Below are positions 4,505 to 55,847 of a DNA stretch of 64,000 bases, in pieces (position 1 is the stretch's first letter; each line of letters opens with the position of its first letter). The position numbers were made by a program, and so were the translations under genes. Below the pieces are notes generated by a model. The model searched no databases. It saw only the letters and a list, made by a program, of their open reading frames with translations, and was not told the origin of the DNA. Source of the stretch: Actinomycetota bacterium (lineage in GTDB: Bacteria; Actinomycetota; Thermoleophilia; Solirubrobacterales; Solirubrobacteraceae); the NCBI GenBank assembly GCA_009699245.1, contig WLOQ01000002.1, positions 186,001 to 250,000 of the forward strand, written 5' to 3'.

Positions 4505-5563
<1,059 letters not shown>

Positions 5564-20370: not shown

Positions 20371-21759
<1,389 letters not shown>

Positions 21760-21947
21760 GTGAGCTGCTTTCTGCGGCCGAGTGCCGCGGTGCGATTCGG
21801 AGACTGCTGCGGCTGGTCCGAATCGCGCGAAGCGCTGCTCGTCAGACGAGAACCTCCCAGGCAGCGACGCCACCTGTACAGCACACGGTAGCCGATCGCC
21901 AGCGTGCGCCTTGCATTTCACCACCCAACCGGGGGTATGGTCCGCGC
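21760..21947. other. Divergent intergenic region
   Basis: The 188 bases between the helicase gene and the acidic-protein gene are less GC-rich than their surroundings and hold no gene I can support. The right end contains the TATGGT box (21936-21941) for the plus-strand gene. The rest may be a long leader of the helicase mRNA, as is common for cold-regulated DEAD-box genes; no clear riboswitch or strong hairpin was recognised. Confidence 0.4.
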
Positions 21948-33789: not shown

Positions 33790-33856
33790 AGGACGAGTCT
33801 CCCCCGGGGTCGGCGCAGAGTGCGCGTGAGCCCCGGGGCGATGCTCGGCTCGTCCT
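33790..33856. terminator. Large two-part hairpin between hup and the CFA synthase gene
   Basis: AGGACGAG (33790-33797) pairs with CTCGTCCT (33849-33856), and inside it CCCCGGGG (33802-33809) pairs with CCCCGGGG (33831-33838). It begins 9 bases after the hup stop and its right arm overlaps the stop codon of the convergent gene, so it can serve both directions. No T run is present. Confidence 0.6.
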
Positions 33857-35162
33857 ACGACCGGTAGTCGGGGATCCGCGTCTCGAACTCCGGTCCGCCG
33901 CCGATCGGCGCCAGCAGCGCCTGGTGGAGCGACAGATCGCCGCAGTCGAAGCCCAGCGCCGCGCCGACGTTGTGCAGGCGCCAGACACGCTCCCGCTCCG
34001 CGCCGATCTCCGCGACCGCGAGCTCACGATGCGCATCGTGGTTCTCCGCCCAGCAGCGCAGCGTCCGTGCGTAGTGCGGGCGCAGTGATTCGTCGTCACG
34101 CAGCTCGAAGCCCGCGGCCTCGAACGCGCTGATGACCGCGCCCTGCGTGTGCAGGTAGCCGTCGGGGAAGACGTAGCGCATCGCGAAGGTGTTCGGGTCC
34201 ATCGCGGCGCCCTGGGCGCGCACGATGCCGTGGTTGAGGAAGAGCCCGTCGTCGGCGAGCAGCGACCGCGCCTTCTCGAGGTAGAGCGGCAGGTTGGCCT
34301 CACCGACATGCTCGAACATCCCGATGCTCGAGATGCGGTCGAACGGGCCGTCTGCGATATCGCGGTAGTCCTGGATGCGCACTTCGCAGAGGTCCTCGAC
34401 GCCGGCCTCGCGGATCCGCTCGCGCGCGAGCTCCGCCTGGGCCTCCGAGAGCGTGACGCCGACGGCGCGGGCGCCGTACTCGCGTGCGGCGTGGATGAGC
34501 ATCGATCCCCAGCCGCAGCCGATGTCGAGCAGCCGGTGGGTGTCGTTGAGCCCGAGCTTGCGGCAGATGACGTCGAGCTTGCGCGTCTGGGCGGCCTCGA
34601 GCGTGTCCTGCGGCCCGTCGAAGTACGCGCAGGAGTAGACCATCGTCGGTCCGAGCATCCGCTGGTAGAACTCGTTCGAGACGTCGTAGTGGTGCTGGAT
34701 CGCGTCGCTGTCGCGCTTGTGCGAGTGCGCGCGACCACTGAGGCGCGCCTCGCAGGCGGGCGGCTCCGGCTCCGGGCGACGCAGGATCCCCAGGCGCCGC
34801 ACCGCACGCAGGGCGGGGATCAGATCCCCGCGCTCGAACGGCGCGTAGCGCCAGACCTTGACCCGCGCGAAGGTGTCCTCGAGGTCGCCCTCGGCCTCGA
34901 GCTCGCCCGCCACATAGGCACGGCTGAGCCCGAGCTCGCCGGGGCGACGAATCATCCGCACGAGCGCGTCGGGCGTGCGGAAGACGACCGCGGGCGGGTC
35001 GACCCAGCCGGGGGTGGCCGGCAGCTCACTCCCATCCCAGAATCGCAGCGCGAAGCCGCGGCCGCCCTCGGCGCGGGCGTCCAGACGCTCGACGACCGGG
35101 GCGAGAATGGCGGCGACGCCGGTGGGCACGGTTCCGGTGGCGGACGGCATGCGGTACATCAT
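33855..35162 (-). CDS. cfa: Cyclopropane-fatty-acyl-phospholipid synthase-type methyltransferase
   Basis: A 435-residue SAM-dependent enzyme that adds a methylene or methyl group to unsaturated acyl chains of membrane phospholipids. An N-terminal domain (about 1-130: GWVDPPAVVFRTPDALVRMIRRPGELGLSRAYVAGELEAEGD) is followed by IQHHYDVSNEFYQRML, the SAM site LLDIGCGWGSMLIHAA, and SSIGMFEHVGEANLPLYL with the active-site Glu/His. The ATG at 35162 (or 35159) lies 10 bases after the stop of the tocopherol-cyclase-like frame. In the sequence as given no stop separates it from the upstream frame, giving a 734-codon open reading frame through an apparent frameshift near 35355. Confidence 0.88.
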   Translation of the reverse strand: MMYRMPSATGTVPTGVAAILAPVVERLDARAEGGRGFALRFWDGSELPATPGWVDPPAVVFRTPDALVRMIRRPGELGLSRAYVAGELEAEGDLEDTFARVKVWRYAPFERGDLIPALRAVRRLGILRRPEPEPPACEARLSGRAHSHKRDSDAIQHHYDVSNEFYQRMLGPTMVYSCAYFDGPQDTLEAAQTRKLDVICRKLGLNDTHRLLDIGCGWGSMLIHAAREYGARAVGVTLSEAQAELARERIREAGVEDLCEVRIQDYRDIADGPFDRISSIGMFEHVGEANLPLYLEKARSLLADDGLFLNHGIVRAQGAAMDPNTFAMRYVFPDGYLHTQGAVISAFEAAGFELRDDESLRPHYARTLRCWAENHDAHRELAVAEIGAERERVWRLHNVGAALGFDCGDLSLHQALLAPIGGGPEFETRIPDYRS

Positions 35163-35172
35163 GCCGAGTCCG

Positions 35173-36059
35173 TCAGGTGAGGGGCGGCACGGCGCTTGCG
35201 CCGGGTGCGCCGCGACGCGCCGCCTCCGCAGCGGCGCGCTCGATCCCCCCGTGCTCCAGGGCCGCGAGCTCCGACGTTCCACTCCAGACGAGGCGCCCGC
35301 GGCGACGGACGCGGACCTCCATCCGGCCCGCGAGATGCTCGAGCGCGCCGGATTGATGACCGGATCGCCGAGACGGATGAGCGTGCCGTCCGGCAGCAGG
35401 ACCACGACGGCGGTGACCTCGGTCCGCAGCGGCCCGGACTCGATCACGCCCCCCGCGAACGCGACGCAGACGCCGGGGTCGTCGAAGCCCTGCGCCTGCC
35501 CCCACCACCAGGCCGGCGGAAAACCGCCGCGTCCCCAGTTCTTCTCGGCGTAGACCGCGGTCCCATCGAGCGAGATCCGCTGATCACCGAGCACCGCCTC
35601 GCCCTCCGCGCGGCCGCCGAGCAGCCAAGGGTGCCAGTACTGATTGAGCGCGGGGACGCTCTGGAAGATGCTCGAGCCGCCGAGCGACCGTCGCGGCCAC
35701 GGCACCGCATCGTGGATCACGGCATCAAGGCGCGCGTCCGGGCCGAGGTCGACATGCAGCTCCCGCGCGGTCCCGCGGAAGGCGGGCCCAGCCGATGCGC
35801 CGAGCGCCGACCGGTCCGCAGCCCCCTCCTGGTACTCGACCGCGCGCAGGAACCGCCCTGGGTGGCCGGCGAGTCCGAGCGTCGCCCAGGGGCCCTGATC
35901 CGACTGGTTGACGCCGTTGAGCGCGATCACGACGCGGCCACCTGCGACATCGGTGAAGCGCCAGAAGTACCCCTCCATCGCCACCCCTGGATGGGCGGGA
36001 AGCGGATCACCGAACGGCAGATCGGCGCCACCGGCGCGATAGGCGGAGCGTAGGCTCAC
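35173..36059 (-). CDS. Tocopherol-cyclase-like protein, apparent frameshift
   Basis: The first 235 residues match the tocopherol cyclase-like family: HPGVAMEGYFWRFTD, GRAEGEAVLGDQRI, VYAEKNWGRGGFPPAWWWGQA. After DGTLIRLGDPVI the frame becomes Ser/Arg-rich, while the adjacent frame gives GALEHLAGRMEVRVRRRGRLVWSG and stops at 35173. One missing base near 35350-35360 explains it and would restore a 295-residue protein. Bacterial members outside cyanobacteria have no known reaction; the lipocalin-like fold suggests binding or cyclising a prenyl or acyl lipid. The GTG start is 6 bases after TAGGCT (complement of 36066-36071). It leads a two-gene operon with the CFA synthase. Confidence 0.72.
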
Positions 36060-36068
36060 GCGCCGAGC

Positions 36069-37427
36069 CTACGCGACGCCGCGCAGCGTGACACGGATGC
36101 GCAGGCCGCCGAGCGGCGAATCCTGGAGCACGAGCTCCCCGTCATGACGCGCGGCCTGCGCTGCGGCGATCGAGAGCCCGAGCCCGGTGCCAAGGCCCCC
36201 GGCGCCCGTGCCGCGCACAAAGCGCTGGAGCACCGCCTCGCGCTCGTCCGTCGGGACGCCGGGGCCGTCGTCATCGACGAGCACCAGGGCGCCGGCCTGT
36301 ATTGCCTCGATCGTGACGGCGATCGTGCCGCCCGGGCGGCCGTGGTTCGCGGCGTTCTGGAGCAGATTGTCAAGCAGCATCCGCAGGCTCTCCGCCTCGC
36401 CGACGATCGACGGGCCCTCCTCCGGCGCGGTGAGCGTCACCGTCGCCTGCGGGTTTCGCGTGCGCACCGCCGCGACCGCGGCGTCGGCGAGCTCGCCGAG
36501 GTCGACGTCCTCGACGCGCGCCGGCGGCCCCGCCTCACCGCGGGCCAGCGCCTGCAGCTGCTCGACGAGGACCGCGAGGCGCGCGGCATCCTCGACGGCC
36601 TGTGCCGTGGCGCCGGTCGCGAGATTCGCCTTGAGGCTCGTGAGCGGGGTGCGCAGCTCGTGGCCGGCGTCCGCGGCGAAGCGGCGGGTGCTCTCGAGCG
36701 CCGCCTCCCGGCCTGCCGCCGTCGCCTCGAGCCGCGCGAGCATCGCGTTGAGATCGGCGCCGAGCGCGTCGACCTCCTCCGGCCCGGCGCCGACCGGCAC
36801 GCGCGCTGCCAGATCGCCGGTCTGGGTGATCTCGTCGGTGGTGCGCCGCAGCCGCTCGATCGGTTGCACCGCGAGGCGCGCGAGCGTCCGCGTGATCAGC
36901 GCGGTGGCGAGCAGCCCGCCGACGAGCGCCGCCAGCACGACGTAGAGGAGCCGGCGCTGGCGCTCCTGAAGCGGCGCCATCTTCGCGGCGACCTGCACCT
37001 GCACGCCGCCGCCGATGGGCCGCACGAGCGTGCGCCAGCTCTGCCCTCCGACACGCACCGTCTTGGGCGTGTCCTGGGACCGCGGGAGCGGGAACCCGTC
37101 AGGCACGCTGGCGCCGCCCGCCACGAAGGTCCCATCGGCGAAGACGAGCCGCGTGAAGCGATCCTCACCCGGGTCGAGGCGGCCGGGGGCCTCACGCCGG
37201 TCGCGTTCGCCCGGTTCTCCATAGCCCGGCAGGTCGCGCGTTGGGCGACCCATGGGCGCCAGCCGCTGCGCCTGGTTGCGCAGCTCGCCATCGAGCGTGT
37301 TGCGATCCGCCCGAGCGCTGGCGATGAGGACGGCCGCTGCCGTGAGGAGCAGCGCCGTCCCGACCGCTGCGACGGCGGCGAGGGTCACGCGCCCGGTCAG
37401 CGAGCGCGGGGTGAGCCGACGGATCAC
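36069..37427 (-). CDS. Membrane sensor histidine kinase (HAMP-HisKA-HATPase)
   Basis: A 452-residue kinase of MprB/TcrY-like layout. Transmembrane helices at about 13-37 and 158-180 flank an extracytoplasmic sensor of about 120 residues. HAMP follows (180-235), then HisKA with His256 in FAADAGHELRTPLTSL, and an ATPase domain with NLLQNAANHG (N box), DDDGPGVP (G1) and GTGLGLSIAAAQ (G2). The first codons overlap the response regulator stop by 4 bases (37424-37427). The signal is unknown. Confidence 0.9.
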   Translation of the reverse strand: MIRRLTPRSLTGRVTLAAVAAVGTALLLTAAAVLIASARADRNTLDGELRNQAQRLAPMGRPTRDLPGYGEPGERDRREAPGRLDPGEDRFTRLVFADGTFVAGGASVPDGFPLPRSQDTPKTVRVGGQSWRTLVRPIGGGVQVQVAAKMAPLQERQRRLLYVVLAALVGGLLATALITRTLARLAVQPIERLRRTTDEITQTGDLAARVPVGAGPEEVDALGADLNAMLARLEATAAGREAALESTRRFAADAGHELRTPLTSLKANLATGATAQAVEDAARLAVLVEQLQALARGEAGPPARVEDVDLGELADAAVAAVRTRNPQATVTLTAPEEGPSIVGEAESLRMLLDNLLQNAANHGRPGGTIAVTIEAIQAGALVLVDDDGPGVPTDEREAVLQRFVRGTGAGGLGTGLGLSIAAAQAARHDGELVLQDSPLGGLRIRVTLRGVA

Positions 37428-38134
37428 CGCGGCCCCGCGGGGTCGCGCAGGACGAACCCGACGCCCCGCACGGTCTGGATCATCCGCGACTCGCCCTCGG
37501 CCTCGAGCTTGCGCCGCAGGTAGCTGACGAAGACGTCGACGACGTTGCCGTCGGCGGCCCAGTCGTACCCCCAGACGAGCTCGAGCAGGCGGTCGCGGGC
37601 GAGGACGATGCCGGCATTGTGCGCGAAGACCTCGAGCAGCTCGAACTCCCGCCGGGTGAGCTCGATCTCGCGGCCGCCGCGGTGGACGAGGTGCGCCGCC
37701 GGGTCGATCACGAGGTCGCCGACCGTGAGGGCGCCGCCGGCCTCGGCATCGGGCTCCTCGCCCGCACGGCGCAGGAGCGCACGCAGCCGGGCGACGAGCT
37801 CCTCGACCGCGAACGGCTTGACGAGGTAGTCGTCGGCACCGGCCTGCAGGCCGGCGACGCGGTCCTCGACCTCATCGCGCGCGGAGAGGATGAGGATCGG
37901 GGTGCGCACGCCATCGGCGCGCAGGCGCGCACACACGGCGCGCCCGCCGAGATCGGGCATCGTGACGTCGAGGATCACTGCCGCCGGCGGGTTGCGCGAG
38001 ACCTGGTCGAGGGCCGCGCGCCCCCCATCGGCGGTGGCGACGGCGAAGCCCTCGAGACGCAGGGCGCGCTCGAGCGCCTCGCGGATGGCGGCGTCGTCGT
38101 CGACGACGAGAACGAGGGGGCCGACGTCGGTCAT
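37424..38134 (-). CDS. OmpR-family response regulator (MprA-like)
   Basis: A 236-residue regulator. The receiver has Asp12-Asp14 (VVDDDAA), phospho-acceptor Asp56 in VILDVTMPDLGG, and Lys near 105 in DDYLVKPF. The winged-helix C-terminal domain shows ELTRREFELLEVF, LLELVWGYDW and VVDVFVSYLRRKLE, and ends TVRGVGFVLRD. It is transcribed before its kinase, with a 4-base overlap. The layout is close to the mycobacterial MprAB stress pair, but orthology is not proven. Confidence 0.9.
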   Translation of the reverse strand: MTDVGPLVLVVDDDAAIREALERALRLEGFAVATADGGRAALDQVSRNPPAAVILDVTMPDLGGRAVCARLRADGVRTPILILSARDEVEDRVAGLQAGADDYLVKPFAVEELVARLRALLRRAGEEPDAEAGGALTVGDLVIDPAAHLVHRGGREIELTRREFELLEVFAHNAGIVLARDRLLELVWGYDWAADGNVVDVFVSYLRRKLEAEGESRMIQTVRGVGFVLRDPAGPR

Positions 38135-38178: not shown

Positions 38179-38793
38179 TCATGGCGCGAGGCGGTCGACG
38201 CGCCAGCAGCCCGCGTCGCGCGCGTAGGCGAACCGGTCGTGGAGGCGGTACTCGTGCGCCTGCCAGAACTCGATCACCTCGAGCTCCAGGAGGTAGCCGC
38301 CCCAGTACGGCGGGCGCTCCACCTCGGCACCGGCGAAACGATCGACGGCTTCGGCGAGTCGGGCGTCGAGCGCCTCGCGGTCGGGCAGGACCGTCCCCTG
38401 CTCGGACGCCCAGGCGCCGAGCTGCGAGATCCGCGGCCGCCCGGCGAAGTACGCGTCGGACTCCGCGTCGCCGAGCGGCGCGCACGCGCCGTGGACGAGG
38501 ATCTGACGCCCGAGCTCGCGCCAGTGGAACAGCGCCTGCGCACGGGGATTGTCGGCGAGCTGACGGCCCTTGAGGCTCAGACGGTTGGTGTAGAAGCGCA
38601 GCCCGTCGGGGCCGACGCCGCGCAGCAGCACGGTGCGGGCCGACGGACGCCCGTCCGCGCCCGCCGTCGCGATCGTCATCGCGTTCGGGTCGGTCATCCC
38701 GGTCGCCGCGGCATCCTCAAGCCACCGGTCGAGCAGCGCGAGCGGATCGTCGGGAAGGGCCGAGCGGGTGAGCGGCGACTGGTCGGCGGTCAT
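38179..38793 (-). CDS. pdxH: Pyridoxamine 5'-phosphate oxidase
   Basis: PdxH is an FMN enzyme that oxidises pyridoxine or pyridoxamine 5'-phosphate to pyridoxal 5'-phosphate. The 204-residue protein shows MTIATAGADGRPSARTVLLRGVGPDGLRFYTNRLSLKGRQLADNP, FHWRELGRQILVHG, RISQLGAWASEQG, and the C-terminal FWQAHEYRLHDRFAYARD...WRVDRLAP, all characteristic PdxH signatures including the PLP-binding Arg residues. Its start overlaps the hybrid kinase stop by 4 bases (38790-38793), so it is the last gene of that transcript. Why a vitamin B6 enzyme is coupled to a sensor kinase is not clear. Confidence 0.92.
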   Translation of the reverse strand: MTADQSPLTRSALPDDPLALLDRWLEDAAATGMTDPNAMTIATAGADGRPSARTVLLRGVGPDGLRFYTNRLSLKGRQLADNPRAQALFHWRELGRQILVHGACAPLGDAESDAYFAGRPRISQLGAWASEQGTVLPDREALDARLAEAVDRFAGAEVERPPYWGGYLLELEVIEFWQAHEYRLHDRFAYARDAGCWRVDRLAP

Positions 38794-41543
38794 GGGGCGG
38801 AAGTCTCCTCGACCCAGGCGTCGATCACGATCCGGGCGGCATCACACGCTGTCACGAGGTCGGCGAGCAGCGCCTCGTCGAGGCGCAGCCCCGAGGAGGC
38901 CGGGCCCGCGGACGCCGCGACCTCGATCGCATGGCAGAGCTCGCCGACGCGCTCGGCACCGAAGATGGAGCTCGCGCCACGGAGCGTGTGCGCGGCGCGT
39001 GAGAGCGCCTGCGCGTCCGGCGCCTGGGCGCCGGAGGCGATCTCCGCGAGGCGCTTTGGCAGCTCGTCCTTCCAGATCCCCGCGAGGCGCCGGACCTGCT
39101 CAGCGCCGCCCAGCTCATCGGCGAGCCGGTCGAGCGCCGCGTGGATGCCTGCGTCCGACCGCTCGTCACCGGCTGTGGCGGGGAGCCAGCGCGCGAGGAC
39201 CTCGCGCAGGGAGGCGAGCGTCACCGGCTTGGGCAGGTGGTCGTCCATCCCCGCGGCGAGGGCATCGTCGCGATCGCCGGCGGTCGCGTTGGCCGTCACG
39301 GCGACGATCGGCACGCGCACGCCCTGCTCGGCCGCGCGAATGGCCCGGGCAACGGCGAGGCCGTCGAGCCCGGGCATGCGCAGGTCCATGAGGATCACCG
39401 CGTAGTGCTGGCGCGCGGCGGCCGCGATCGCCTCATGGCCGTCGACGGCGACGTCGGCGGCGACGTCGAGCCGCTCGAGCTGGCGCTCAAGGAGCGTGCG
39501 ATTGACCTCGTTGTCCTCGACGATGAGGACCCGTGCTGCGCTGCCGGGCCGCAGCGGCTCGGTGGACGCCCGCGGGCGATCCTGCGGGACGGTCTCCCCG
39601 AGCGCCTCGAGGACGGCGAGCGCCAGCCGCTCGGCACGCACCGGCAGCAGGAGCCCGTCGTCGACCGGACCGAGCACGACGGTCGGAAGCCCGGCGGTCG
39701 CCGAGCCGCCGGGCTCGGCGGCGAGCACCGCGGCGTCCGCACCCAGCGCCGACGCGTCGTCGCCCGAGGCGTCGGTGCGCACCTCGGCGCCGAGCGCCTC
39801 GAGGGTCCGGGCCAACGCATGCTGCGCCCGCGCAGTCGGCGCGTGGAGCAGGATGCGCCGACCGGCCAGGGGGCGCGCGATGGGCGGCTGCGAGGCCGCC
39901 GTCAGGAGGCGCACCTGGATCCGCACGGTGGTGCCCTCACCCTCGACACTCTCCAGCTCGATGCCACCGCCCATCAGCGTTGCGAGCCGCTCGGAGATCA
40001 CGAGGCCGAGGCCGGTCCCGCCGTGGCGTCGCGCAGGCCCGGCGTCGGCTTGGACGAACGGCTCGAAGAGCCGATCGCGCGCCGCCTCGGGAATCCCGAT
40101 GCCGGTGTCCGTGACGGCGATCTCGAGCGCCGCGGTGTCCCCGTCGCGCTCGAGCAGCGTCGCCTCAACGACGACCTCCCCGTGATCGGTGAACTTCACG
40201 GCGTTCCCGATGACGTTGACGAGGATCTGGCGCAGGCGCCCCGGGTCGCCGATCAGCACCGCGGGGATCACGGGGTCCACGGCGGTCGTGAGCGTCAGCC
40301 CGCGAGCACGGGCCTGCGGCGCCGGGACCTGCGCCGCCGATTCGACGACCTCGCGCAGCTCGAACGGCTCGTCGACGAGGTCAAGGCGCCCGGCTTCGAC
40401 CTTGGCGGTGTCGAGCACATCGTCGACGATCGACAGCAGCGCGTGCGAGGACTGATGGACGAGCCGCACGAGCTCCGCCTGGGCGTCGTCGAGCGCCGTG
40501 TCGCGAAGCAGGTCGGCCGCGCCGATCACGCCGTTCATCGGCGTGCGCAGCTCATGGCTCATCGTCGCGAGAAACTCCGACTTGAGCCGGCCGGCCTCGA
40601 GCGCCGCATCGCGGGCGCCGGCGAGATCCCTGATGGCGGCGCGACGCGAGCGATCGGTGCCGATCCAGAGCGCCATCAGGCGCGTGAGGGAGATCTCGCG
40701 CTCGGGGAACGGGGCGCTGCGCGGCGTCGACCCGGCGAACACGAGCGTCCCGGTGCGCACGCCGTCCGCGACGATCGGCACGTCGACACAGGCCTCAAAG
40801 CCGAAGCGCTGGAGAATCGGCAGGCGCGCGGCCTGCGGGCTGTCCGCGCGGAGCACGATCACCGGCTCGATCGCCAGGTCATCCGACGCCCCGAAGACCT
40901 GGCTGAGGGGCATGCGCGTCCCCGTCTCGATCCGCCCATCTGGGTCGCGGACGGCCAGCAGTTCGCTCTCGCCGTCGACATGGCGGGTGATGACGCCGAC
41001 CTCAAGCCCGAGGAGCTCGCACCCGGCGGCCAGCAGCCGCTGCTGGCGCTCGGCGAGCGGCACCTCGGCGTCGGTGATCACCGCGAGGACGGCGGTCGCG
41101 GCGCGATCATGCCGCAGCGCGCCCTGCTCCTCGCGCACGCGCTGCGTGACGTCCCAGTAGACCCAGAGGTTCCCGACGCCGACCCCGTCGATTTCGAGCG
41201 GCACGAAGTCGCGCTCGAAATAGCGACCGTCGGCGAAGGCGAGCGGCTCGTCGCGGACGATCTCGCGCAGGGTGAGGATCTCGTCGACGCGCGTGACGAA
41301 TCCGTCGGGATCGACGAGCAGCCCCTTGGCCGCTTCGACGGCGGCGACGCAGTCGAAGCCCGAGAGGCTCTCCGGCGCCGCCGGGATCGCGAAGATCTGG
41401 CAGAACTCCTGATTGACGTAGGCGATCCGCCGCTGCTCATCCTCGACGAGCACGCCGGCGCCGATCCCGTCGAGCACGGCGCCTAGCCGCACGCGCTCGC
41501 CGGCGACGCCGGACTGCGCTGGATTGAGGGGGTTGGCTGTCAC
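38790..41543 (-). CDS. Hybrid sensor histidine kinase (PAS-GAF-HisKA-HATPase-REC-HPT)
   Basis: A 917-residue multi-domain phosphorelay kinase without obvious membrane helices. PAS covers about 20-135 and GAF about 150-295. HisKA has His330 in FLATMSHELRTPMNGVIG; the ATPase region follows to about 545 (NVIGNAVKFT, DTGIGIP, GTGLGLVIS). Next is a receiver-like stretch lacking the acceptor Asp (AAVLAAEPGG, about 560-660), a proper REC domain (VLIVEDNEVN, VILMDLRMPGLDG), and a C-terminal HPT domain with AAHTLRGASSIFG. The GTG start was chosen because PAS homology starts soon after. It diverges from an OmpR-type regulator 40 bases away. Confidence 0.85.
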   Translation of the reverse strand: MTANPLNPAQSGVAGERVRLGAVLDGIGAGVLVEDEQRRIAYVNQEFCQIFAIPAAPESLSGFDCVAAVEAAKGLLVDPDGFVTRVDEILTLREIVRDEPLAFADGRYFERDFVPLEIDGVGVGNLWVYWDVTQRVREEQGALRHDRAATAVLAVITDAEVPLAERQQRLLAAGCELLGLEVGVITRHVDGESELLAVRDPDGRIETGTRMPLSQVFGASDDLAIEPVIVLRADSPQAARLPILQRFGFEACVDVPIVADGVRTGTLVFAGSTPRSAPFPEREISLTRLMALWIGTDRSRRAAIRDLAGARDAALEAGRLKSEFLATMSHELRTPMNGVIGAADLLRDTALDDAQAELVRLVHQSSHALLSIVDDVLDTAKVEAGRLDLVDEPFELREVVESAAQVPAPQARARGLTLTTAVDPVIPAVLIGDPGRLRQILVNVIGNAVKFTDHGEVVVEATLLERDGDTAALEIAVTDTGIGIPEAARDRLFEPFVQADAGPARRHGGTGLGLVISERLATLMGGGIELESVEGEGTTVRIQVRLLTAASQPPIARPLAGRRILLHAPTARAQHALARTLEALGAEVRTDASGDDASALGADAAVLAAEPGGSATAGLPTVVLGPVDDGLLLPVRAERLALAVLEALGETVPQDRPRASTEPLRPGSAARVLIVEDNEVNRTLLERQLERLDVAADVAVDGHEAIAAAARQHYAVILMDLRMPGLDGLAVARAIRAAEQGVRVPIVAVTANATAGDRDDALAAGMDDHLPKPVTLASLREVLARWLPATAGDERSDAGIHAALDRLADELGGAEQVRRLAGIWKDELPKRLAEIASGAQAPDAQALSRAAHTLRGASSIFGAERVGELCHAIEVAASAGPASSGLRLDEALLADLVTACDAARIVIDAWVEETSAP

Positions 41544-41583
41544 AAGCGTTCCATGCTGATGTGATCTGCGATGCTGCGCGCCG

Positions 41584-42291
41584 ATGGCAGCCGGTGTCAA
41601 TGCGCTCGTGATCGAGGATACGCCCGAGGTCGCCGAGCTCGTGCGCGCCGCACTCGAAGCCGAGCTCTTCACGGTCAGGGTCTGTGGTGACGGTCCCGCC
41701 GGTCTCGCAGCCGCCCGCGAGCATGCGCCGGACGTCGTCGTGCTCGATGTGAACCTCCCCGGCATGGACGGGATCGAGCTCTGTCGCCGCCTGCGCGGGT
41801 TCAGCGACGCCTACGTCGTAATGCTCACCGCCCGCGGCGAGGAGGCCGACCGGCTCGTCGGCCTCGCCGTCGGCGCCGACGACTACCTCACGAAGCCGTT
41901 CTCCCCGCGCGAGCTCGTCGCGCGCATCCGGGCGATGCTCCGGCGCCCGCGGCACGGCGCCGCGTCCGGCGACGGCGCGGTGCGCGAGTTCGGGCCGCTG
42001 CGCATCGACGGCGCGGCGCGCGAGGTCGTCCTCGCAGGCGCGCCGATCACCCTCAGTCGGACCGAGTTCGACCTGCTCGATCTGCTCTCGGAGAACGCGC
42101 GGATCTCACTCAGTCGCCAGCAGCTGCTCGAGCGGATCTGGGGGCCCGGCTGGTTCGGCGACGATCACGTGATCGACGTCCACGTGTCGAACCTGCGCCG
42201 CAAGCTCGGCGACGACCCGCGCAGCCCGCGGTTCATCCGCACGGTTCGCGGGTTCGGCTACCGCATGGGGGACGGCAGCGCGTCGACCTAG
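41584..42291 (+). CDS. OmpR-family response regulator
   Basis: A 235-residue regulator: Glu11-Asp12 in VIEDTPE, phospho-acceptor Asp55 in VVVLDVNLPGMDG, Lys in DDYLTKPFSP, and a winged-helix domain (ITLSRTEFDLLDLL, LLERIWGPGWFGDDHVIDVHVSNLRRKLG, TVRGFGYRM). It is divergent from the hybrid sensor kinase with only 40 bases between starts, so it may take phosphate from that kinase's HPT domain; this pairing is inference. Its stop overlaps the convergent aldo/keto reductase stop by four bases (CTAG). Confidence 0.88.
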   Translation: MAAGVNALVIEDTPEVAELVRAALEAELFTVRVCGDGPAGLAAAREHAPDVVVLDVNLPGMDGIELCRRLRGFSDAYVVMLTARGEEADRLVGLAVGADDYLTKPFSPRELVARIRAMLRRPRHGAASGDGAVREFGPLRIDGAAREVVLAGAPITLSRTEFDLLDLLSENARISLSRQQLLERIWGPGWFGDDHVIDVHVSNLRRKLGDDPRSPRFIRTVRGFGYRMGDGSAST

Positions 42292-43424: not shown

Positions 43425-43513
43425 GCCCAGAGCCTACGCCGCCGTCGACCGCGGCGTCCCCCGGGCGCCGATCTGCCGCAGGCCGCTGCGTGGGCGCCTA
43501 TCGTCCCGCGTGC

Positions 43514-45061
43514 ATGAGTGCGCCGCAGAGCCCGGGAGCCGGTGACGTCCTCGGTGGCTGCCGCCTCGAGCGCCTCGTCGCGCAGGGCGGCATGGGGATG
43601 GTCTACGAGGCGACGCACCTCGCCCTCGGCCGACGCGTCGCCGTCAAGGTCATCGCGCCGCAGCTCGCGCACGACCCGGAGTTCCGCGAGCGCTTCGAGC
43701 GCGAGGCCCGCCTCACCGCGCGGTTGCACCACCCGCACGTCGTCGACGTCTACGACGCCGGCGAGCAGGACGGTGTGCTGTACCTCGTCATGCGGTTCGT
43801 CGAGGGGACCGACCTGCGCACGCTGCTCCACGGCGGGCAGCGCCTCGACGCCGAGCGCGCGGTCGCCCTCACCGGGCAGGTCGCGGGCGCCCTCGACGCC
43901 GCCCACGCGGCGGGGCTCATCCACCGCGACGTCACCCCGTCGAACATCCTCATCGGCGACGGCGGCGACGCGGCGCTCACCGACTTCGGTCTCGTCAAGC
44001 ACCTCGAGACGGCCGGCCTGACCCGCACGGGCGCCTGGTTCGGCACGCTTGCGTACGTGGCGCCCGAGGCGCTGCGCGACGAGGGCGTCGACGCGCGCGC
44101 GGACGTGTACGCGCTCGGCTGCCTGCTCCATCGCATGCTCACGGGCGAGACGCCGTACCCGCGCGAGAGCGATGCCGCCGTGATCGCGGCGCACCTGCAC
44201 GACGCGCCGCCCCGGCCGTCGGTCGTCGCGGGCGTCCCGTCGGCCTTCGACGGCGTGATCGCGCGGGCGCTCGCGAAGGAACCACAGGACCGGTTCGGAT
44301 CGGCCGGCGCCCTGGCGGTCGCGGCCCGCGACGCGCTGCGTGCAACCCCGGACGAGGCCGCGACCGGGACGGCGCCCACGATCCGCAGGACAATTGTGCC
44401 CGCGGAAGCTGCGACCCGCATCGCGCCGCCGCACAAGCACCCTGCCGGCGCCGATGCTCCCGCCCGCACGGGGCGCGGCGGTGGCCGACTCGCCGTGGCT
44501 GCGGCGGCGCTCCTCCTGCTGGGCGCGGGCGCAGGCGCCGCCCTCGGAGCGGCGCTCCAGGACGACCCGGCGCCGGCCCCCAAGCGGGTGCGCACGGCGA
44601 CACGCGCCTCGAACATCCCCGCACCCGCGAACCTCACGCCATATGAGACCGTCGGGTACCGCGCCCAGGTCCCGGACGGCTGGGAGCTCGTCGCCGACGA
44701 CATGCCGCGCGGGACGCTGCACGAGAGCCGCTGGCGCACCGGCGGGACCGACCCAGCCGAGCTCGTGATCGCCTACGTCGAGGACTCGCAGGCGACCCCG
44801 GAGGGCGCGGCGTCGCGGGCGCGCGCGCAGCACTACCGGGCCCCCACCTTCTCCGAGCTCGCCTTCGGTCCCGTCGGACTCGCCGGCGGCCAGGGCTACC
44901 GCTGGATCTACGGGACCGCCGGCGACGCGCACTTCAACTGGTATCTCAACCCGTGCGGCATCGCCGTCGCCGTCCACGGCCAGACGGCGGCGCGCTCCGC
45001 CCTCTACTGGGCGCCGACCTTCCGCACCGTGGCCGAGTCGATCCAGACGGCCTGCGAGTAG
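43514..45061 (+). CDS. Ser/Thr protein kinase, membrane anchored, with extracytoplasmic domain
   Basis: A 515-residue PknB-like kinase. The kinase domain (about 14-275) has the Gly loop AQGGMGMVYEA, Lys45 in VAVKVIA, the catalytic HRDVTPSN with Asp139 and Asn144, DFG (157-159) and APEAL. The usual Lys after HRD-x is a Thr. A variable linker follows, then a transmembrane helix (about 317-340), then an extracytoplasmic domain (about 370-515) with two Cys residues near its end and no PASTA repeats. The ATG is 9 bases after TATCGT. The signal is unknown; a sigma-factor remnant follows downstream. Confidence 0.85.
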   Translation: MSAPQSPGAGDVLGGCRLERLVAQGGMGMVYEATHLALGRRVAVKVIAPQLAHDPEFRERFEREARLTARLHHPHVVDVYDAGEQDGVLYLVMRFVEGTDLRTLLHGGQRLDAERAVALTGQVAGALDAAHAAGLIHRDVTPSNILIGDGGDAALTDFGLVKHLETAGLTRTGAWFGTLAYVAPEALRDEGVDARADVYALGCLLHRMLTGETPYPRESDAAVIAAHLHDAPPRPSVVAGVPSAFDGVIARALAKEPQDRFGSAGALAVAARDALRATPDEAATGTAPTIRRTIVPAEAATRIAPPHKHPAGADAPARTGRGGGRLAVAAAALLLLGAGAGAALGAALQDDPAPAPKRVRTATRASNIPAPANLTPYETVGYRAQVPDGWELVADDMPRGTLHESRWRTGGTDPAELVIAYVEDSQATPEGAASRARAQHYRAPTFSELAFGPVGLAGGQGYRWIYGTAGDAHFNWYLNPCGIAVAVHGQTAARSALYWAPTFRTVAESIQTACE

Positions 45062-49142: not shown

Positions 49143-50084
49143 TCAGGGGGCGGCCACGTGCTCGGGCTCGCGCCCGCGCGGTGAGCCCGCAGCGCTCCAC
49201 GACCACAGCACGACGAGCCACGTGATCGTCGCCGTGCAGACGTGCACCCACACGAGCTCGGCCGGGAGCTGCGACTGATACTGCACGGCCCCGAGGATCC
49301 CCTGGACGCCGAGGATGATGACGAGCGTCGTCAGCGGGACGAGCAGCGCACGCGTCGCGCCGCGGTACCACGCCGTCCCGAGCGCCACGAGCGCGAGGAG
49401 CCCGAAGATCGCCCCGACCACGGTGTGCTGGTCGACCGCCCAGCTGAGCGTGTCGTTGCCCTTGATGTAGAGCCGTTCGACGAGGTCGCCGGTCCCTCTG
49501 CCACCGGCGTGCGGGCCGGCTGCGGTCGCCGCGGTGCCCGCCACGACCATCAGCGCGCCGACCGGCGCGAGCAGGCGGGTGAGCCACATCGTGAGGCGGT
49601 CGGCGGCACCGGGCTCGATCGTTCCCGCCTCCCAGTCGGGCCGCGAGCGCCAGTAGAGCGCCCAGGCGGCGATGAGGATCACGAGCGACAGCGCGTAGTG
49701 GCCCATCACGAAGCCGGGCTTCAGGTCGTAGACGACGCTCAGCCCGCCGAGGACCGCCTGCGCGACGACGCCGAGCGGCAGCAGACACCCGAGGATCTTC
49801 AGGTCGCGGCGCGTCGGGGTGCGCAGGAAGGCGAGGAGGCCGGCGAGGATCGTGCCGAGCGCCACGATGCCGGAGAAGACGCGGTTCGTGAACTCGATGA
49901 TCGCGTGGGTGTCGAGTGGGGCGACGACCTTGCCCTTCTCGCACGCGGGCCAGCCCTCACAGCCGAGGCCACTGCCCGTGAGCCGCACCGCGGCACCGCT
50001 GAAGACGATGAGCGTCAGCAGCACCAGGGCGGCCGTGGCGATCTGGTGGTAGCGCTCTGGGGAGACCTGGAGGCGGGACCGCAT
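49143..50084 (-). CDS. ctaA: Heme A synthase
   Basis: CtaA hydroxylates the C8 methyl of heme O to make heme A for cytochrome aa3 oxidase. The 313-residue protein has eight hydrophobic helices in two repeats. The extracytoplasmic Cys42-Cys48 pair lies in GLGCEGWPAC, followed by IIEFTNRVFSG with the catalytic Glu64, and the heme ligands in FVMGHYALS, DQHTVVG and WVHVCTA. Partner genes (ctaB, ctaCDE) are not in the window. It follows the glycosyltransferase genes on the same strand at only 3 bases. Confidence 0.9.
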   Translation of the reverse strand: MRSRLQVSPERYHQIATAALVLLTLIVFSGAAVRLTGSGLGCEGWPACEKGKVVAPLDTHAIIEFTNRVFSGIVALGTILAGLLAFLRTPTRRDLKILGCLLPLGVVAQAVLGGLSVVYDLKPGFVMGHYALSLVILIAAWALYWRSRPDWEAGTIEPGAADRLTMWLTRLLAPVGALMVVAGTAATAAGPHAGGRGTGDLVERLYIKGNDTLSWAVDQHTVVGAIFGLLALVALGTAWYRGATRALLVPLTTLVIILGVQGILGAVQYQSQLPAELVWVHVCTATITWLVVLWSWSAAGSPRGREPEHVAAP

Positions 50085-50087
50085 CGG

Positions 50088-51020
50088 CTACATCGTGGCA
50101 CGGTCAGGGGCATAGGCCCATGGCCACCGCGAGCACTCGTCCCACCCGGCGCGTCGGAGCTCGCGTGCGTAGTCCTCCGCGAGTTCCCCGGCAAGGCCGG
50201 CGTCGGCGGCACGCATGGCGCGCTCCGGCACATGGTGCGTGAGCTGCTCGGGCACCGCCGGATCGAAGCCGCTGAGGTGCAGGACCCGGCAGGGGACGTC
50301 CCCTGCGTGGAGCGACCCGTCGCGCAGCGACAACGGCCGCTGGGGGAGATTCCAGAACGCGACGTTGGTCCCGGGGTCGGCGAGCACCGCGACGCCCTCG
50401 AACATCCCGGGCGCGAGGTCGGCCCAGCGCTGATCGAGGAAGCGCCCGCCGGGAATGTCCACGTCGCAGTCCTCCGCGAGGCGGTCGCCCCACCAGCCCA
50501 GGAACGCGCGCGCGGGCGCTCCCTCGCGCACGGCGACCACGCCGGTGTTGAGCGCGCCGTTCACGCGCGTGTAATACCCCCACAGCGCCGCATCCGGCCC
50601 GGTGACCGGCTCGACATGGTGGGGCGTGAGCAGGACATCCGCCCGCCCGAGCCCGTCGATCAGCGTCGTCAGCGGGTTCGTGACGATGGTGTCCGTGTCG
50701 AGGTAGATCACGCGCTCGTGGCCGCGACGCAGGAGGTGCTCGATCGCCGCGGCCTTCATCGACATCGCAGCGGTCCCGGGGTTTGCGTGGCTGCGCGCCT
50801 GCTCGACGAGGTCGCGGTGCGCCACCTCGCGCAGGCGGATGACCTCGAACGGCTCCGCGGCAGGGTCGAAGCAGCCCTGCGGCTCATCGACGAGGAGGAG
50901 CGCCAGCTCCAGCTCCGGGTGATGGCGGCGCAGCGACTGCGCAAGGACGCGTGCGCCGGCGAGCCGCGCCTTGGTCGCGATCGCCGCGACGATCACGGGG
51001 TCGCGTACACCCATGGCCAT
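50088..51020 (-). CDS. GT8-like glycosyltransferase (LHLSGFDP group), stand-alone copy
   Basis: A 310-residue GT-A-fold transferase. It begins VIVAAIATKARLAGARVLAQSLRRHHPELELALLLVDEP, has the metal/sugar-nucleotide motif DTD (Asp108, Asp110 in IYLDTDTIV), a NTGVVAV segment, FLDQRWADLAP and the group's LHLSGFDP. It is the closest paralogue of the next gene and of two domains in the giant protein. Donor and acceptor are unknown. GGAGGAGA seven bases before the ATG sets the start, inside the end of the upstream gene (28-base overlap). Confidence 0.78.
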   Translation of the reverse strand: MAMGVRDPVIVAAIATKARLAGARVLAQSLRRHHPELELALLLVDEPQGCFDPAAEPFEVIRLREVAHRDLVEQARSHANPGTAAMSMKAAAIEHLLRRGHERVIYLDTDTIVTNPLTTLIDGLGRADVLLTPHHVEPVTGPDAALWGYYTRVNGALNTGVVAVREGAPARAFLGWWGDRLAEDCDVDIPGGRFLDQRWADLAPGMFEGVAVLADPGTNVAFWNLPQRPLSLRDGSLHAGDVPCRVLHLSGFDPAVPEQLTHHVPERAMRAADAGLAGELAEDYARELRRAGWDECSRWPWAYAPDRATM

Positions 51021-51898
51021 GTCGAGCTCTCCTCCCACCCCGCGTCGACCAGCGCCTCGCGGTACTGGGCCGTGATCTCCCCCAGCAGGCCGGCGACGTC
51101 GGTGGTCAGGTCGGGCATGTGGACCGAGACGAGGTGCGGACGGCCCGGGTCGTATCCGGAGAGGTGCAGCAGCCGGCACGGCACGCCCCCGGCGCGGAGC
51201 TCGCCATCGTGGCGGGTCAACGGACGCTCGGTGAGATTCCAGAAGGCGACGTTCGTCCCGGGGTCATCGAGGATCGCGACCCCCTCAAGGAGCCCCGGTG
51301 CCAGGTCGAGCCAGCGCTGGTCATGGAATACGCCCCGCGCAGGATCGGCGGTGCAGCAGACGGCGAGTCGATCCCCCCACCAGCCCAGGAAGGCGCGGCC
51401 GCGCGCGTCGCCGCGGACCCCGACGACCCCGCCGTTCATCACGCCCGCGACCTGCACGGCCTGCAGGACCGAGCGAGCGGCGAGGCCGCGGGGCGACGTG
51501 AGCAGATGCGGCGTGAGCACCACAGAACCGCCGTCGAGCGCCGCGATCAGCGGGTCGAGCCGCCCGGTGACGAGCATGTCCGTGTCGAGGTGGATCGCTG
51601 CCCAGCACCCACCGGCGAGGACATGCTCGAGCAGCGCGGCCTTCATCGAGTTGGCGCAGTCGCCCGCGGCCCGGTGGGCACCCACCTGGGCGAGGAGGTC
51701 GCGGTGCTCGACGTCTTCCAGGCGGATGACGTCGAACGGCTGATCTGCGGGGTCAAAGCGCCCGGCCGGCTCATCGACCAGCAGCACGCTGAGCGACAGC
51801 TCCGGGTGATGGCGCAGCAGCGACTGTGCGAGGACCCGCACGCGCGAGAGGTGCGAGGACGTCGAAACGGTCGTGATCGCGAGCGGCCGGTCAGACAT
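50993..51898 (-). CDS. GT8-like glycosyltransferase, second stand-alone copy
   Basis: A 301-residue paralogue of the neighbouring transferase: ITTVSTSSHLSRVRVLAQSLLRHHPELSLSVLLVDEP, DxD (Asp105, Asp107 in IHLDTDMLV), VMNGGVVGVRG, FHDQRWLDLAPG, TNVAFWNL and LHLSGYDP, in the same order. The ATG overlaps the stop of the giant gene by 8 bases and its end overlaps the next transferase, so all three are translated from one transcript. Conserved FWNL and DQRWxDLAP segments probably form the active site. Confidence 0.78.
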   Translation of the reverse strand: MSDRPLAITTVSTSSHLSRVRVLAQSLLRHHPELSLSVLLVDEPAGRFDPADQPFDVIRLEDVEHRDLLAQVGAHRAAGDCANSMKAALLEHVLAGGCWAAIHLDTDMLVTGRLDPLIAALDGGSVVLTPHLLTSPRGLAARSVLQAVQVAGVMNGGVVGVRGDARGRAFLGWWGDRLAVCCTADPARGVFHDQRWLDLAPGLLEGVAILDDPGTNVAFWNLTERPLTRHDGELRAGGVPCRLLHLSGYDPGRPHLVSVHMPDLTTDVAGLLGEITAQYREALVDAGWEESSTWPWVYATP

Positions 51899-54800
51899 CC
51901 CACGGCACCGCGTACTCGGTGCGCCCGGCGTGATCCACCCAATCGAGGAACGCCTCGTGATCCTCACCCAGATGCTGCGGGTAGAGCGCCTGGAGGTCCG
52001 GGCGCTCGCGCCAGATGACATCCCAGAATCGGCTGACGCCGTCGTCGCCGGCGGGCTGCGCCATCCAGGCGCGGAAGGTTCCCGGCCCCGTCGCGAACGG
52101 GTCGCCGAAGCGCGCCGCGTCGCGACCCAGCCTGCGGTGGAGGTCGCGGACGGCGTCCGTCACCGGCGCGCCATCGTCGAACGCGTCGTACGCGTAGGGC
52201 AGCAGGCACGCGTCGCGCGCGCCGGCATCGAGCAGCTCCTCGCGGTATAGGCGGTAGATGTCCGCCGCCGGGCCGAACGATGCGAGCGTGACGGCGGGCC
52301 GGTCGATGGTCGCGAGGTCGGGTCGCTCGGGGTCGTAGCCGCTGAAGTGCACGACCGTGGCCGACCGGCCGTCGACCTCGACGCGCCCGCCGGCGAGCCG
52401 CGGTGCCCGCTCAGCGAGGTTCCAGTGGCCGATGTTGACGCCACGGTCACGCAGGACATGCAGGCCGGGGACCACCGCGAGCGTGAGGTCGAGGTGCCGC
52501 TGTTCGTAGTAGAGGCCGCGGTGTGGATCGTCGACGCAGTCCGCGCGCACCTGCTCATCCCACCAGCGCAGCGCCTCCAGCGCCTCGGGGACATCGGCGA
52601 CGGCGACGACGCCCGCGTTGAAGACGCCGCGCACGGAGGCGAAGAGTTCACGCTCGAGCGCGTCGGGCCCGGTCGCCGGCTCGGCCATGTGCGGCGTGAG
52701 CACGAGCGGCGCGGCGACGAGCGGCGCGGTGATCGGGTCGAGCGGTCCGGCGACGAACGTCGCAGGGCGCAGCAGGACGACTGCGTCGACGTCGTCGCGC
52801 CGCAGAACATGCTCGATCGCCGCCGGCGTGAGGACGGCTGCCAGCGCGTCGCGGTCGTGCTCGAACGCGAGCTCGCGCATCCCCGGAATGGCGAGGTCGG
52901 CAGCGACGAGCAGCTCGATCGGCTCGCCGCTCACGTCCGGCAGGCCGTACGGCTCGTCGGTCAGGACCCAGACGCAGGGCGTCCCGGGGTTCGTGCGCGC
53001 GAGCGACCGAGCCAGCACGCGCACATGCGCGAGCTGCGCATTCGGCCCCACGGTCACCACCGTGACGCGCGGGCCGCCAGATGCGGGACGGGCGGGGGTG
53101 GACGGCTGCGGCTCGGCCACCGCGCCGCTGGGCACCGGCCGTGCGGCAAGCTCGGCGCGCAGCGCCTCGAGCTGGCGCTCCTGCTCGCGCAGGCGGCCGA
53201 GCGCCGTCGCGTGCAGGGCGCTCACGCGGGCGTTGACGCGGCGATCGAGCGCCCGCGCATCGTCGCTGAGCGCGCGATTGATCTCCTCCTGCCAGTACGT
53301 ATAAGGGCGGATCGCGCGCAGCACTATGCGCCGCAGTGCGGCGCCTGCCTTGCCACCGCGGGCGCGCACACGCGGCGCGGAGCCCGCTGCGATCAGCGCC
53401 CCCGCGCGCGCGGAGCTGGGGAGCGGCGCGCGTGCGCCGCCGGCGAGTCGGGGCGCGATCCGCCGCAGGCGCGCCTCGGCGGCGCGGCCTGTCACGAGCA
53501 GTGAGTGGCCGGCGCGCATGTCGGCGGCGGCGCGCACTCCGAGCGCGGCTGCCGCCTGCGGGTCGTCGAAGACCTGACGCATCAGCCGTGCAGCGTGCTC
53601 GACGTCGGGCTCGGCCCACTCGCCGTCGGCCGGATAGGGCCAGGCGCCCTCGCCGACCGGGATCATCGTGAAGTCGACGGCGAGGCTGTTCGCCGCCGTC
53701 ATGTAGTCCATGTTCCCGGAGTAGCCCGTGGCGATCACCGGCTTGCCGAGGTACATCGCCTCCGCGATCGTGAGCCCCAGGCCCTCGCAACGGTGGAGCG
53801 AGACGTAGCAGTCGCAGCTCGCCATCAGCCGATCACGGTCGGGCGCATCGAGGTAGCCGCCGAGGATCACGATGTCGGTGCGACCACCGATGGCGTCGAG
53901 GACCTCCGCATGCTGGTCGGGCTGCTTGTCCGCGTTGATGCTCTTGAGGACGAGCACGGGCCCCTCACCCTCGGCGAACGCCGTGGTGAAGGCACGGACC
54001 GCGGCGACGGGGTTCTTGCGCCGGACGGTGCTGTTGTAGTCGTACGCGTAGAGGAACGTGAAGTCGGCCGGCCAGCCGAGCTCGCCGACGGCGAGCGGGT
54101 GGGTCGGGGCCACCGCGATCGGCATCGGAATGTGCACGACCGGCACGGGCGCGGCGGCGGCCAGCGTCTGCGCGACGAAGCTCGTCCCCGCCCAGATCTC
54201 GTCGACGTACCCGAAGGCCTCGTCGTACTCGGCGGGAAACGCGTTCGTCTCCCACCACCAGAGGCCGATGTTGTGGCGCCCCTCGAAGAACTGCTCGCCG
54301 ACCTCGCGCGCCAACCGCGGGACGCCGTCGGCGTTCACGCAGATGAGGTTCACCGGGAGTGGCGGCCGCTCGGCGTCGAGCCCGGCGAAGGGGTGCCCGG
54401 CCCGGCTCGCGGGCGCGTTCAGCTCGATCGGCGCGGCGGGCACGCCGGCCGCATCGAGCGCGGCGACCATCTGGCGCGCGATCTCACCGATCCCGAGCTC
54501 CGCCCGCAGGTACCCCGCGACGTTGACGCCTGGGACGCCGTCCCGCACCGTGTCGACCGGCGGAAGCTGCGCCCCCGCGCTGCGCAGCGCGAGCGCCTCG
54601 GCGGGGATGAGCGCCTCCGGGATCGCCAGCTCTGAGCTGCCGTGGTCGGCGACCCAGCGCAGGAAGCCACGCGCATCGCGCTCGTCGCCGAGATCGGGAA
54701 AGGCGTGGCGCATGTCGCTGCGCTCGGCCCATGCGCGCTGCAGGAGGCGCGTGACGCGCGGCGCCTGCGGGTCGCGCTCGTTGAGCCACGCGACGAACTC

Positions 54801-55799
54801 CGCTTCGCCGGCCGGCGTGAAGATGGACGCCGGAAGCATGCCTTCGGAGCGGCCGTCGCGGTAGGCCTCGCGCAGCAGCGGCGTGAGCGCCATCCCGGAC
54901 GGGAGCACGTCGTTGCCGTAGGGGATCGCGCACGCCGCGTCCCAGCCCTCCTCCAGCAGCGCTGCGCGGTATCCGTCGCAGAGCTCGCGCAGGACCGGCT
55001 CGTCGCTGAGCCGCACGCGATCCTGGTGGCGGCTGAGTTCGAAGGGCCGCGCCGGGTCGTAGCCGCTGAGGTGCAGGAACCGCAGCGGGTGCCCGTCGAC
55101 GGCGTAGCGGCCGTCGGTCACGGTGAGCTCCCGGCCCAGGATGTTCCAGTACGCGAGGTTGCAGGCGGGATCGCGCAGCACAGCGAGGTCCGGGAGGAAC
55201 GACGGGGCGAGGTCCATCCAACGCTGGTCGACAAAGATCCCCTCGGCCGGGGCGTTGCGGCAGTCGGTGAGGAGCCGCTCCGCCCACCAGTCGAGGAGGC
55301 GGTCGGCATCCGCCCCCGCCTTGAGCGCGACGAAGCCGAGGTTGAAGAACCCCGCGACGAGGATGTCCGCCTCGCTCGGGCGCCGGCCGTCGCGCGGGAG
55401 CGGCCCGGCCAGGTGCGGGGTCAGCACCACCGGGTGGTCGCGCAGCGCCTCCTCGACAGGCCCCAGCGGCGCGAAGATGCGGATGTCGGGATCGAGGTAG
55501 GCGAGGCCGGCGGCACAGCCGCGCTCCTCGAGCAGGTGCCGCAGGAGCCAGGGCTTAAGCGACGTCGCGAACTCGAGCACGTCGTAGGCCGCGCGCATCT
55601 CGTCGTACGCGTCAAGGCGCAGGTCGGCGGGGGCGACGAGCTCGAATGGCTCGGCCTGCGCGTCCACCGAGCCGTCATCGTCGATGACGAGGACGAAGCA
55701 CCGTGCGCCGGGGTGATGCTCAGCGTGCGAGCGTGCCAGCACGCGGGCCTGCGGGAGGTAGTTGCGCGCGACGATCGTGCAGATGTCCAACTCGGGCAC
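51891..55799 (-). CDS. Giant three-catalytic-domain glycosyltransferase (GT8-like, GT4, GT8-like)
   Basis: A 1302-residue protein with no signal or membrane helix. Residues 1-300: GT8-like domain with DPD (Asp103, Asp105) and LHLSGYDP. About 325-400: helical module with WxxR...FPDL...FLRWVADHG. About 425-775: GT4 domain with the E-x7-E signature (Glu672, Glu680 in EGLGLTIAE). About 830-890: coiled coil. About 910-1200: second GT8-like domain whose DxD site reads RPA (1011-1013). About 1235-1302: a second helical module ending FLDWVDHAG. The frame opens 1250 bases further upstream over the ABC gene, but only the GTG at 55799 (VPELDICTIV) aligns with the paralogues. Confidence 0.82.
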   Translation of the reverse strand: MPELDICTIVARNYLPQARVLARSHAEHHPGARCFVLVIDDDGSVDAQAEPFELVAPADLRLDAYDEMRAAYDVLEFATSLKPWLLRHLLEERGCAAGLAYLDPDIRIFAPLGPVEEALRDHPVVLTPHLAGPLPRDGRRPSEADILVAGFFNLGFVALKAGADADRLLDWWAERLLTDCRNAPAEGIFVDQRWMDLAPSFLPDLAVLRDPACNLAYWNILGRELTVTDGRYAVDGHPLRFLHLSGYDPARPFELSRHQDRVRLSDEPVLRELCDGYRAALLEEGWDAACAIPYGNDVLPSGMALTPLLREAYRDGRSEGMLPASIFTPAGEAEFVAWLNERDPQAPRVTRLLQRAWAERSDMRHAFPDLGDERDARGFLRWVADHGSSELAIPEALIPAEALALRSAGAQLPPVDTVRDGVPGVNVAGYLRAELGIGEIARQMVAALDAAGVPAAPIELNAPASRAGHPFAGLDAERPPLPVNLICVNADGVPRLAREVGEQFFEGRHNIGLWWWETNAFPAEYDEAFGYVDEIWAGTSFVAQTLAAAAPVPVVHIPMPIAVAPTHPLAVGELGWPADFTFLYAYDYNSTVRRKNPVAAVRAFTTAFAEGEGPVLVLKSINADKQPDQHAEVLDAIGGRTDIVILGGYLDAPDRDRLMASCDCYVSLHRCEGLGLTIAEAMYLGKPVIATGYSGNMDYMTAANSLAVDFTMIPVGEGAWPYPADGEWAEPDVEHAARLMRQVFDDPQAAAALGVRAAADMRAGHSLLVTGRAAEARLRRIAPRLAGGARAPLPSSARAGALIAAGSAPRVRARGGKAGAALRRIVLRAIRPYTYWQEEINRALSDDARALDRRVNARVSALHATALGRLREQERQLEALRAELAARPVPSGAVAEPQPSTPARPASGGPRVTVVTVGPNAQLAHVRVLARSLARTNPGTPCVWVLTDEPYGLPDVSGEPIELLVAADLAIPGMRELAFEHDRDALAAVLTPAAIEHVLRRDDVDAVVLLRPATFVAGPLDPITAPLVAAPLVLTPHMAEPATGPDALERELFASVRGVFNAGVVAVADVPEALEALRWWDEQVRADCVDDPHRGLYYEQRHLDLTLAVVPGLHVLRDRGVNIGHWNLAERAPRLAGGRVEVDGRSATVVHFSGYDPERPDLATIDRPAVTLASFGPAADIYRLYREELLDAGARDACLLPYAYDAFDDGAPVTDAVRDLHRRLGRDAARFGDPFATGPGTFRAWMAQPAGDDGVSRFWDVIWRERPDLQALYPQHLGEDHEAFLDWVDHAGRTEYAVPWDV

Positions 55800-55847
55800 G
55801 GCTCCATCGAACCAGGTTCTCCGGGGCGGCGCAGCTACGCTCCCGCC

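Follow-up and report, generated by a model that had tools for sequence, protein, structure and literature searches.

Introduction

How have a PF14249-like gene and a CFA-synthase-like gene come to share a single open reading frame in the window, i.e., the whole stretch of 64,000 nucleotides that was analysed, and what does the resulting frame mean for the two proteins? A first-pass annotation had read the locus as two normally separate genes brought into one frame, with a scrambled linker between them, by a one-base indel near 35350-35360. The two genes and the scrambled linker are indeed there; the nature of the event that joined them is considered below in the light of relatives, structural models and patterns of base change.

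The fused open frame and its parts

The predicted frame of 734 codons, from 36059 into the CFA synthase, is borne out and free of stops. The locus comprises the following features:

33855..36059, minus strand: fused open frame, GTG start, 734 codons (734 aa), no internal stop
35348..36059, minus strand: 5' remnant of the PF14249-like gene, GTG at 36059; first barrel and beginning of the second
35347..35352, no strand assigned: probable deletion junction, CCGG at 35351-35348 assignable to either side
35173..35347, minus strand: orphaned 3' end of the PF14249-like gene, one frame off; GALEHLAGRMEV...PPLT, TGA at 35175-35173
33855..35162, minus strand: CFA-synthase-like gene (CMAS, PF02353), complete, ATG at 35162
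36069..37427, minus strand: histidine kinase (PF02518, HAMP, HisKA), 9 bases upstream of the fused frame
37424..38134, minus strand: response regulator, called by its sequence and its position beside the kinase

According to Pfam, the fused protein matches PF14249 only at residues 134-228 (profile 151-244 of 335), with a score of 38.1 bits that lies above the gathering cut-off of 26.6, and carries a CMAS/CFA-synthase domain at residues 445-713 that is complete (PF02353, E=8.3e-88, 294.7 versus 27 bits, profile 1-272 of 273). The NCBIfam level of cyclopropane fatty acid synthase is missed by the CFA-like protein (NF008686, 246 versus 400 bits; NF040703, 298.7 versus 650 bits), and the name CFA synthase is therefore used here at the family level only. 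The domain is that of the CFA synthases and cyclopropane mycolic acid synthases, from which the present case differs in that a broken gene precedes it in frame.

The loss of protein character that had been noticed after residue ~235 is real, since residues 1-235 match the relatives and the 64 codons that follow are essentially devoid of homologues in the fused frame, shifted-frame echoes in two loci (L027 and L055) being the sole exceptions among the best 80 of 172 matching loci. Read in the fused frame, the orphaned tail and the 10-base spacer form the scrambled linker. The adjacent frame, with GALEHLAGRMEVRVRRRGRLVW, ends at the TGA 35175-35173, ten bases ahead of the ATG 35162, and was rightly taken for genuine protein, as a homologue of this tail occurs in each of the 80 named loci (best 80 of 172). 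No second gene copy occurs in the genome (one match).

Comparison with relatives

The relatives consist of 80 named loci, the best 80 of 172 matching, taken from genome contigs. The nearest of them, G015 (record WLNG01000058.1, locus L027), belongs to the same genus and shares 87% amino acid identity with the window over residues 1-235, 91% over the orphaned tail in its old frame, and 90% over 435 of 435 residues of the CFA synthase. The response regulator is 90.7% identical to that of L027, with which the alignment also gives the same order of kinase and regulator. Two separate genes are found in the relatives, G015 included, where the PF14249-like and CFA genes overlap by four bases (gap -4).

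Pairwise alignments place 142 more bases in G015 between the NP and GALEHL codons. The same excess of 142 bases over the window occurs in 75 of the 80 relatives, the others having 139 (two), 154 (one) or 141 (two) additional bases, which means that the missing stretch is present in all 80 (best 80 of 172). The proposed one-base indel has thus to be abandoned, although its position was well chosen, the junction lying at 35352-35347. The loss of 142 bases is invisible from a single sequence, because the missing piece leaves the change of frame as its sole trace; and the event being a 142-base deletion, a base error of the homopolymer type does not explain the frame break. In 77 of the 80 loci (best 80 of 172), the gene reads through without a break for 330-362 residues from where the match begins, the exceptions being L097, which runs off its contig, and the two loci with 141 extra bases, L046 from Antrihabitans cavernicola and L084 from Prescottella defluvii, each of which has its own one-base shift.

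The latter two loci deserve mention in their own right. In L046 and L084 (CP121458.1), at ~4700-4850, an independent frame shift of the one-base type affects the same C-terminal segment of the PF14249-like gene, and in L084 the shifted frame extends to 845 codons. These shifts may be sequencing errors or mutations.

In L027, either end of the missing piece is marked by the tetranucleotide CCGG (microhomology 4). A match of at least 4 bases at the same spacing is found at 3.2% of positions in L027, and the CCGG is accordingly no more than suggestive. Folding of the DNA of the missing piece, looked at for a hairpin in the intact relative, is not unusual (z +1.45). Relocation of the piece within the genome was also considered and rejected, no copy occurring elsewhere in the assembly: the only strong match is the surviving tail, two others having E values of 0.03 and 0.4.

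Over ~5.5 kb of synteny with G015 (82% identity), no other frame-breaking indel occurs inside a gene, the histidine kinase showing indels of +3/-3 and the others being intergenic, apart from a difference of 11 bases at the gene boundary. Further upstream, the region of a hybrid histidine kinase (window 38794-42290) is absent from G015, where contig C184 joins the counterparts of 38793 and 42291.

Effect on the PF14249-like protein

The missing piece encodes ~47 residues, which in the model of an intact relative (pLDDT 87.7, pTM 0.88) are predicted to form four strands, at 238-242, 246-252, 256-263 and 270-276, in the second barrel. Since 142 does not divide by three, what is left of the C-terminal coding sequence falls out of frame, and this out-of-frame part spans most of strands 281-300 and 303-318 and the final helix 320-329 of the same model. 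Judging from this model, the second barrel would be unable to form as it does in the relatives, and the window protein does not keep the two complete lipocalin-like barrels seen there. The end of the PF14249 profile, 335 of 335, is reached by all four of the four intact relatives compared, whereas the window frame ends at 244, profile part 245-335 being absent from the same frame of the fused protein (Pfam). The fused protein gave a model too poor to interpret (mean pLDDT 44.6), the CFA half being represented in just 2 of the 14 other alignment rows, and this low confidence was not counted as evidence.

The PF14249 Tocopherol_cycl proteins of Actinomycetota (e.g., L027, L031, L066) are homologous to window residues 1-235 and to the ~58 C-terminal residues in the old frame; in comparison, the window protein is ~47 residues short, has its remainder out of frame, and its match ends at 244 of 335. 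Cyclisation of tocopherol by any of these proteins is putative. By sequence, no real match to a solved structure was obtained (best E 0.35, antibody chains). By structure, the model of the intact relative matches in Foldseek the two-barrel calycin fold of AttH/CrtC-like proteins, e.g., NE1406 (2ich), kievitone hydratase (7a0q), Fsa2/CghA/Phm7 and the 25-phosphosteroid lyase (9g4c), over ~327-395 columns with E values of 1e-9 to 4e-6 and TM scores of 0.41-0.59. CrtC is a name given to this fold. Sequence identity to these structures is 8-15%, and the window protein differs from them in lacking most of the second barrel. The published account of NE1406 describes two packed lipocalin-like barrels, the second formed by residues 221-352 (PMC2954199). 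Among the literature matches listed, no paper dealt with these proteins.

Why the frame stays open

The wrong-frame C-terminal codons remain open for 64 codons and then run into the frame of the CFA synthase. The shifted frame that this needs stays open from the corresponding point up to the stop codon of the gene itself in 31 of 86 relatives, a set of named and unnamed loci that possess a recognisable LPVP motif. A random out-of-frame deletion would accordingly join the two genes in frame with a chance of ~12% (31/86 x one in three). Eleven bases of the window (35179-35169), at the boundary of both genes, are absent from G015, and because of this difference the frame relation of the two genes is not that of G015.

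Distribution of the fusion and gene neighbourhood

The reading of two joined genes would have been undermined by relatives encoding the same 734-residue protein, and none was found. A match spanning the fused protein occurs in one of 17 genomes of the genus, the window's own (two of the 17 are devoid of any match), and a 200-residue piece covering the junction finds a full-length match in one of 61 genomes of the family, again its own; no other genome of either set showed the fused architecture. Among the genomes searched, the deletion appears private to that of the window and, as far as base changes can tell, very recent.

In most genomes of the genus, the CFA-like and PF14249-like genes lie on separate contigs. 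In G003 (L083, 2696-5068), a CFA-like gene (50% identity) stands 10 bp upstream of the PF14249-like gene, in the order opposite to that of the window. A CFA-like match occurs in three of the 80 named loci (L027, L083 and L089; best 80 of 172), and a CFA-like gene is not a common neighbour of the PF14249-like gene among these 80 loci, the neighbours being counted as clusters of called ORFs, many of them shadow frames.

Selection and age of the probable deletion

Compared with G015 in its old frame, the orphaned tail shows 31 base changes, 27 of them at third positions (pN 0.048, pS 0.5); in the fused frame, 26 of 30 changes fall on second positions. The pN of the tail resembles that of the core (0.064), and dN/dS relative to G015 amounts to 0.095 for the PF14249-like core and 0.116 for the CFA synthase. 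When residue differences from G015 are polarised with nine relatives, three of six in the tail fall on the side of the window, one of these created by the junction codon; in the core, eight of the 30 differences are assigned to the window, 17 to G015 and 5 to neither. Neither the old-frame changes nor the polarised differences give any sign of relaxed selection in the tail. By a hand estimate, neutral evolution along the entire window branch would have brought ~50 replacements to the tail, and two are seen. Purifying selection in the old frame has thus acted on the tail, and therefore the deletion is either very recent, falling by the same estimate within roughly the last tenth of the window branch, or an artefact of assembly.

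Origin of the junction

The reading that we consider probable is a recent, private, loss-of-function deletion of 142 bases that joined the two genes in frame and left the CFA synthase intact. A deletion between the two CCGG sites, which might have arisen by replication slippage or by microhomology-mediated joining, as the four shared bases would allow, would have cost the second barrel of the lipocalin-fold PF14249-like protein ~47 codons and put the last ~58 codons into another frame. By chance, this new frame would have been open and coincident with that of the CFA synthase, so that translation begun at GTG 36059 would yield 734 residues made of the first barrel, a scrambled linker of ~64 residues and the whole CFA synthase. 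The function of the PF14249-like protein would most likely be lost, and synthesis of the intact CFA synthase probably continues, whether by initiation at its own ATG or as the C-terminal part of the fusion protein.

A single-base sequencing error or mutation accounts for the relation of the two frames, which differ by one base modulo three (142 = 3x47+1), but its probability is negligible, since a single base cannot explain the lost strands and all 80 relatives (best 80 of 172) hold 139-154 more bases at this place; the pairwise alignments and this extra length rule it out. An artefact of the assembly or library is a considerably more serious rival, which we regard as unlikely and yet as the strongest of the alternatives. 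The organism would then have two intact genes, falsely joined by short-overlap gap closure, by a chimeric read or by the skipping of a GC-rich stretch. Such a false join agrees with a tail whose codons appear fully functional in the old frame, a pattern of strong selection equally compatible with an artefact and with a recent event, with a deletion confined to one genome, and with an assembly of 19 contigs. Conversely, 142 bases are too many for a base-calling error; the flanks share 4 bases, far below the word length of an assembler, which would make collapse of the graph unlikely; the rest of the ~5.5 kb is colinear with G015 without frame-breaking indels inside genes; the segment of the intact relative is not unusually structured DNA; and a copy of the missing piece is lacking elsewhere in the assembly.

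The quality of the sequence was also approached by a GC-position scan of the window, which flagged 11 called frames, the fused frame included. Five of the ten others were scanned against Pfam. The DEAD-box helicase at 20371-21924 ends in a tail rich in Gly/Ser and has relatives of full length, in the hybrid kinase at 38790-41765 the usual domains follow what looks like an over-long start, the frame 43490-45061 contains a whole kinase domain with the flagged part beyond it, the frame 51891-57050 gave a glycosyltransferase piece only, and the frame 49242-51743 matched no Pfam family. Widespread frame errors were considered and rejected; with five of the ten other frames covered, and three of these accounted for, the scan does not prove the assembly to be clean.

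A functional fusion, in which the first barrel, attached to the CFA synthase, binds lipid or provides docking and selection has favoured the deletion, finds some encouragement in the absence of a stop before the CFA synthase and in the adjacency of the genes in two orders within the genus (CFA downstream in G015, upstream in G003/L083), a hint that both act in one lipid pathway. We hold it to be very improbable, as the linker is out-of-frame sequence, joining in frame has a chance of ~12% at random, most of the second barrel is lost, and the fusion is absent from all other genomes searched (17 of the genus, 61 of the family). It is just as improbable that the locus represents a newborn chimeric enzyme, in which a single microhomology deletion tethered a lipocalin-like barrel to the CFA synthase and kept the downstream enzyme translated.

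Significance

Under the preferred reading of a private 142-base deletion, this gene fusion by deletion is of an ordinary sort. Antonov et al. (2013, PMC3711429) describe singleton frame breaks, which are common in prokaryotic genome data, and take them as sequencing errors or recent indels. The present case resembles the singletons treated there in that its frame break is not common to the relatives, and differs from them in that a deletion of 142 bases is involved and the broken frame runs on into the following gene. The locus exemplifies the joining of two genes by a single out-of-frame deletion and shows how a change of frame, taken alone, hides the size of the event, since it took the relatives to reveal that 142 bases, and not one, are missing. 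Annotations should not rely on the 734-residue product as support for a natural fusion of both enzymes. With respect to the biology of the family, the two genes are adjacent in both orders within a single genus, which weakly suggests a role of the PF14249-like protein in lipid metabolism.
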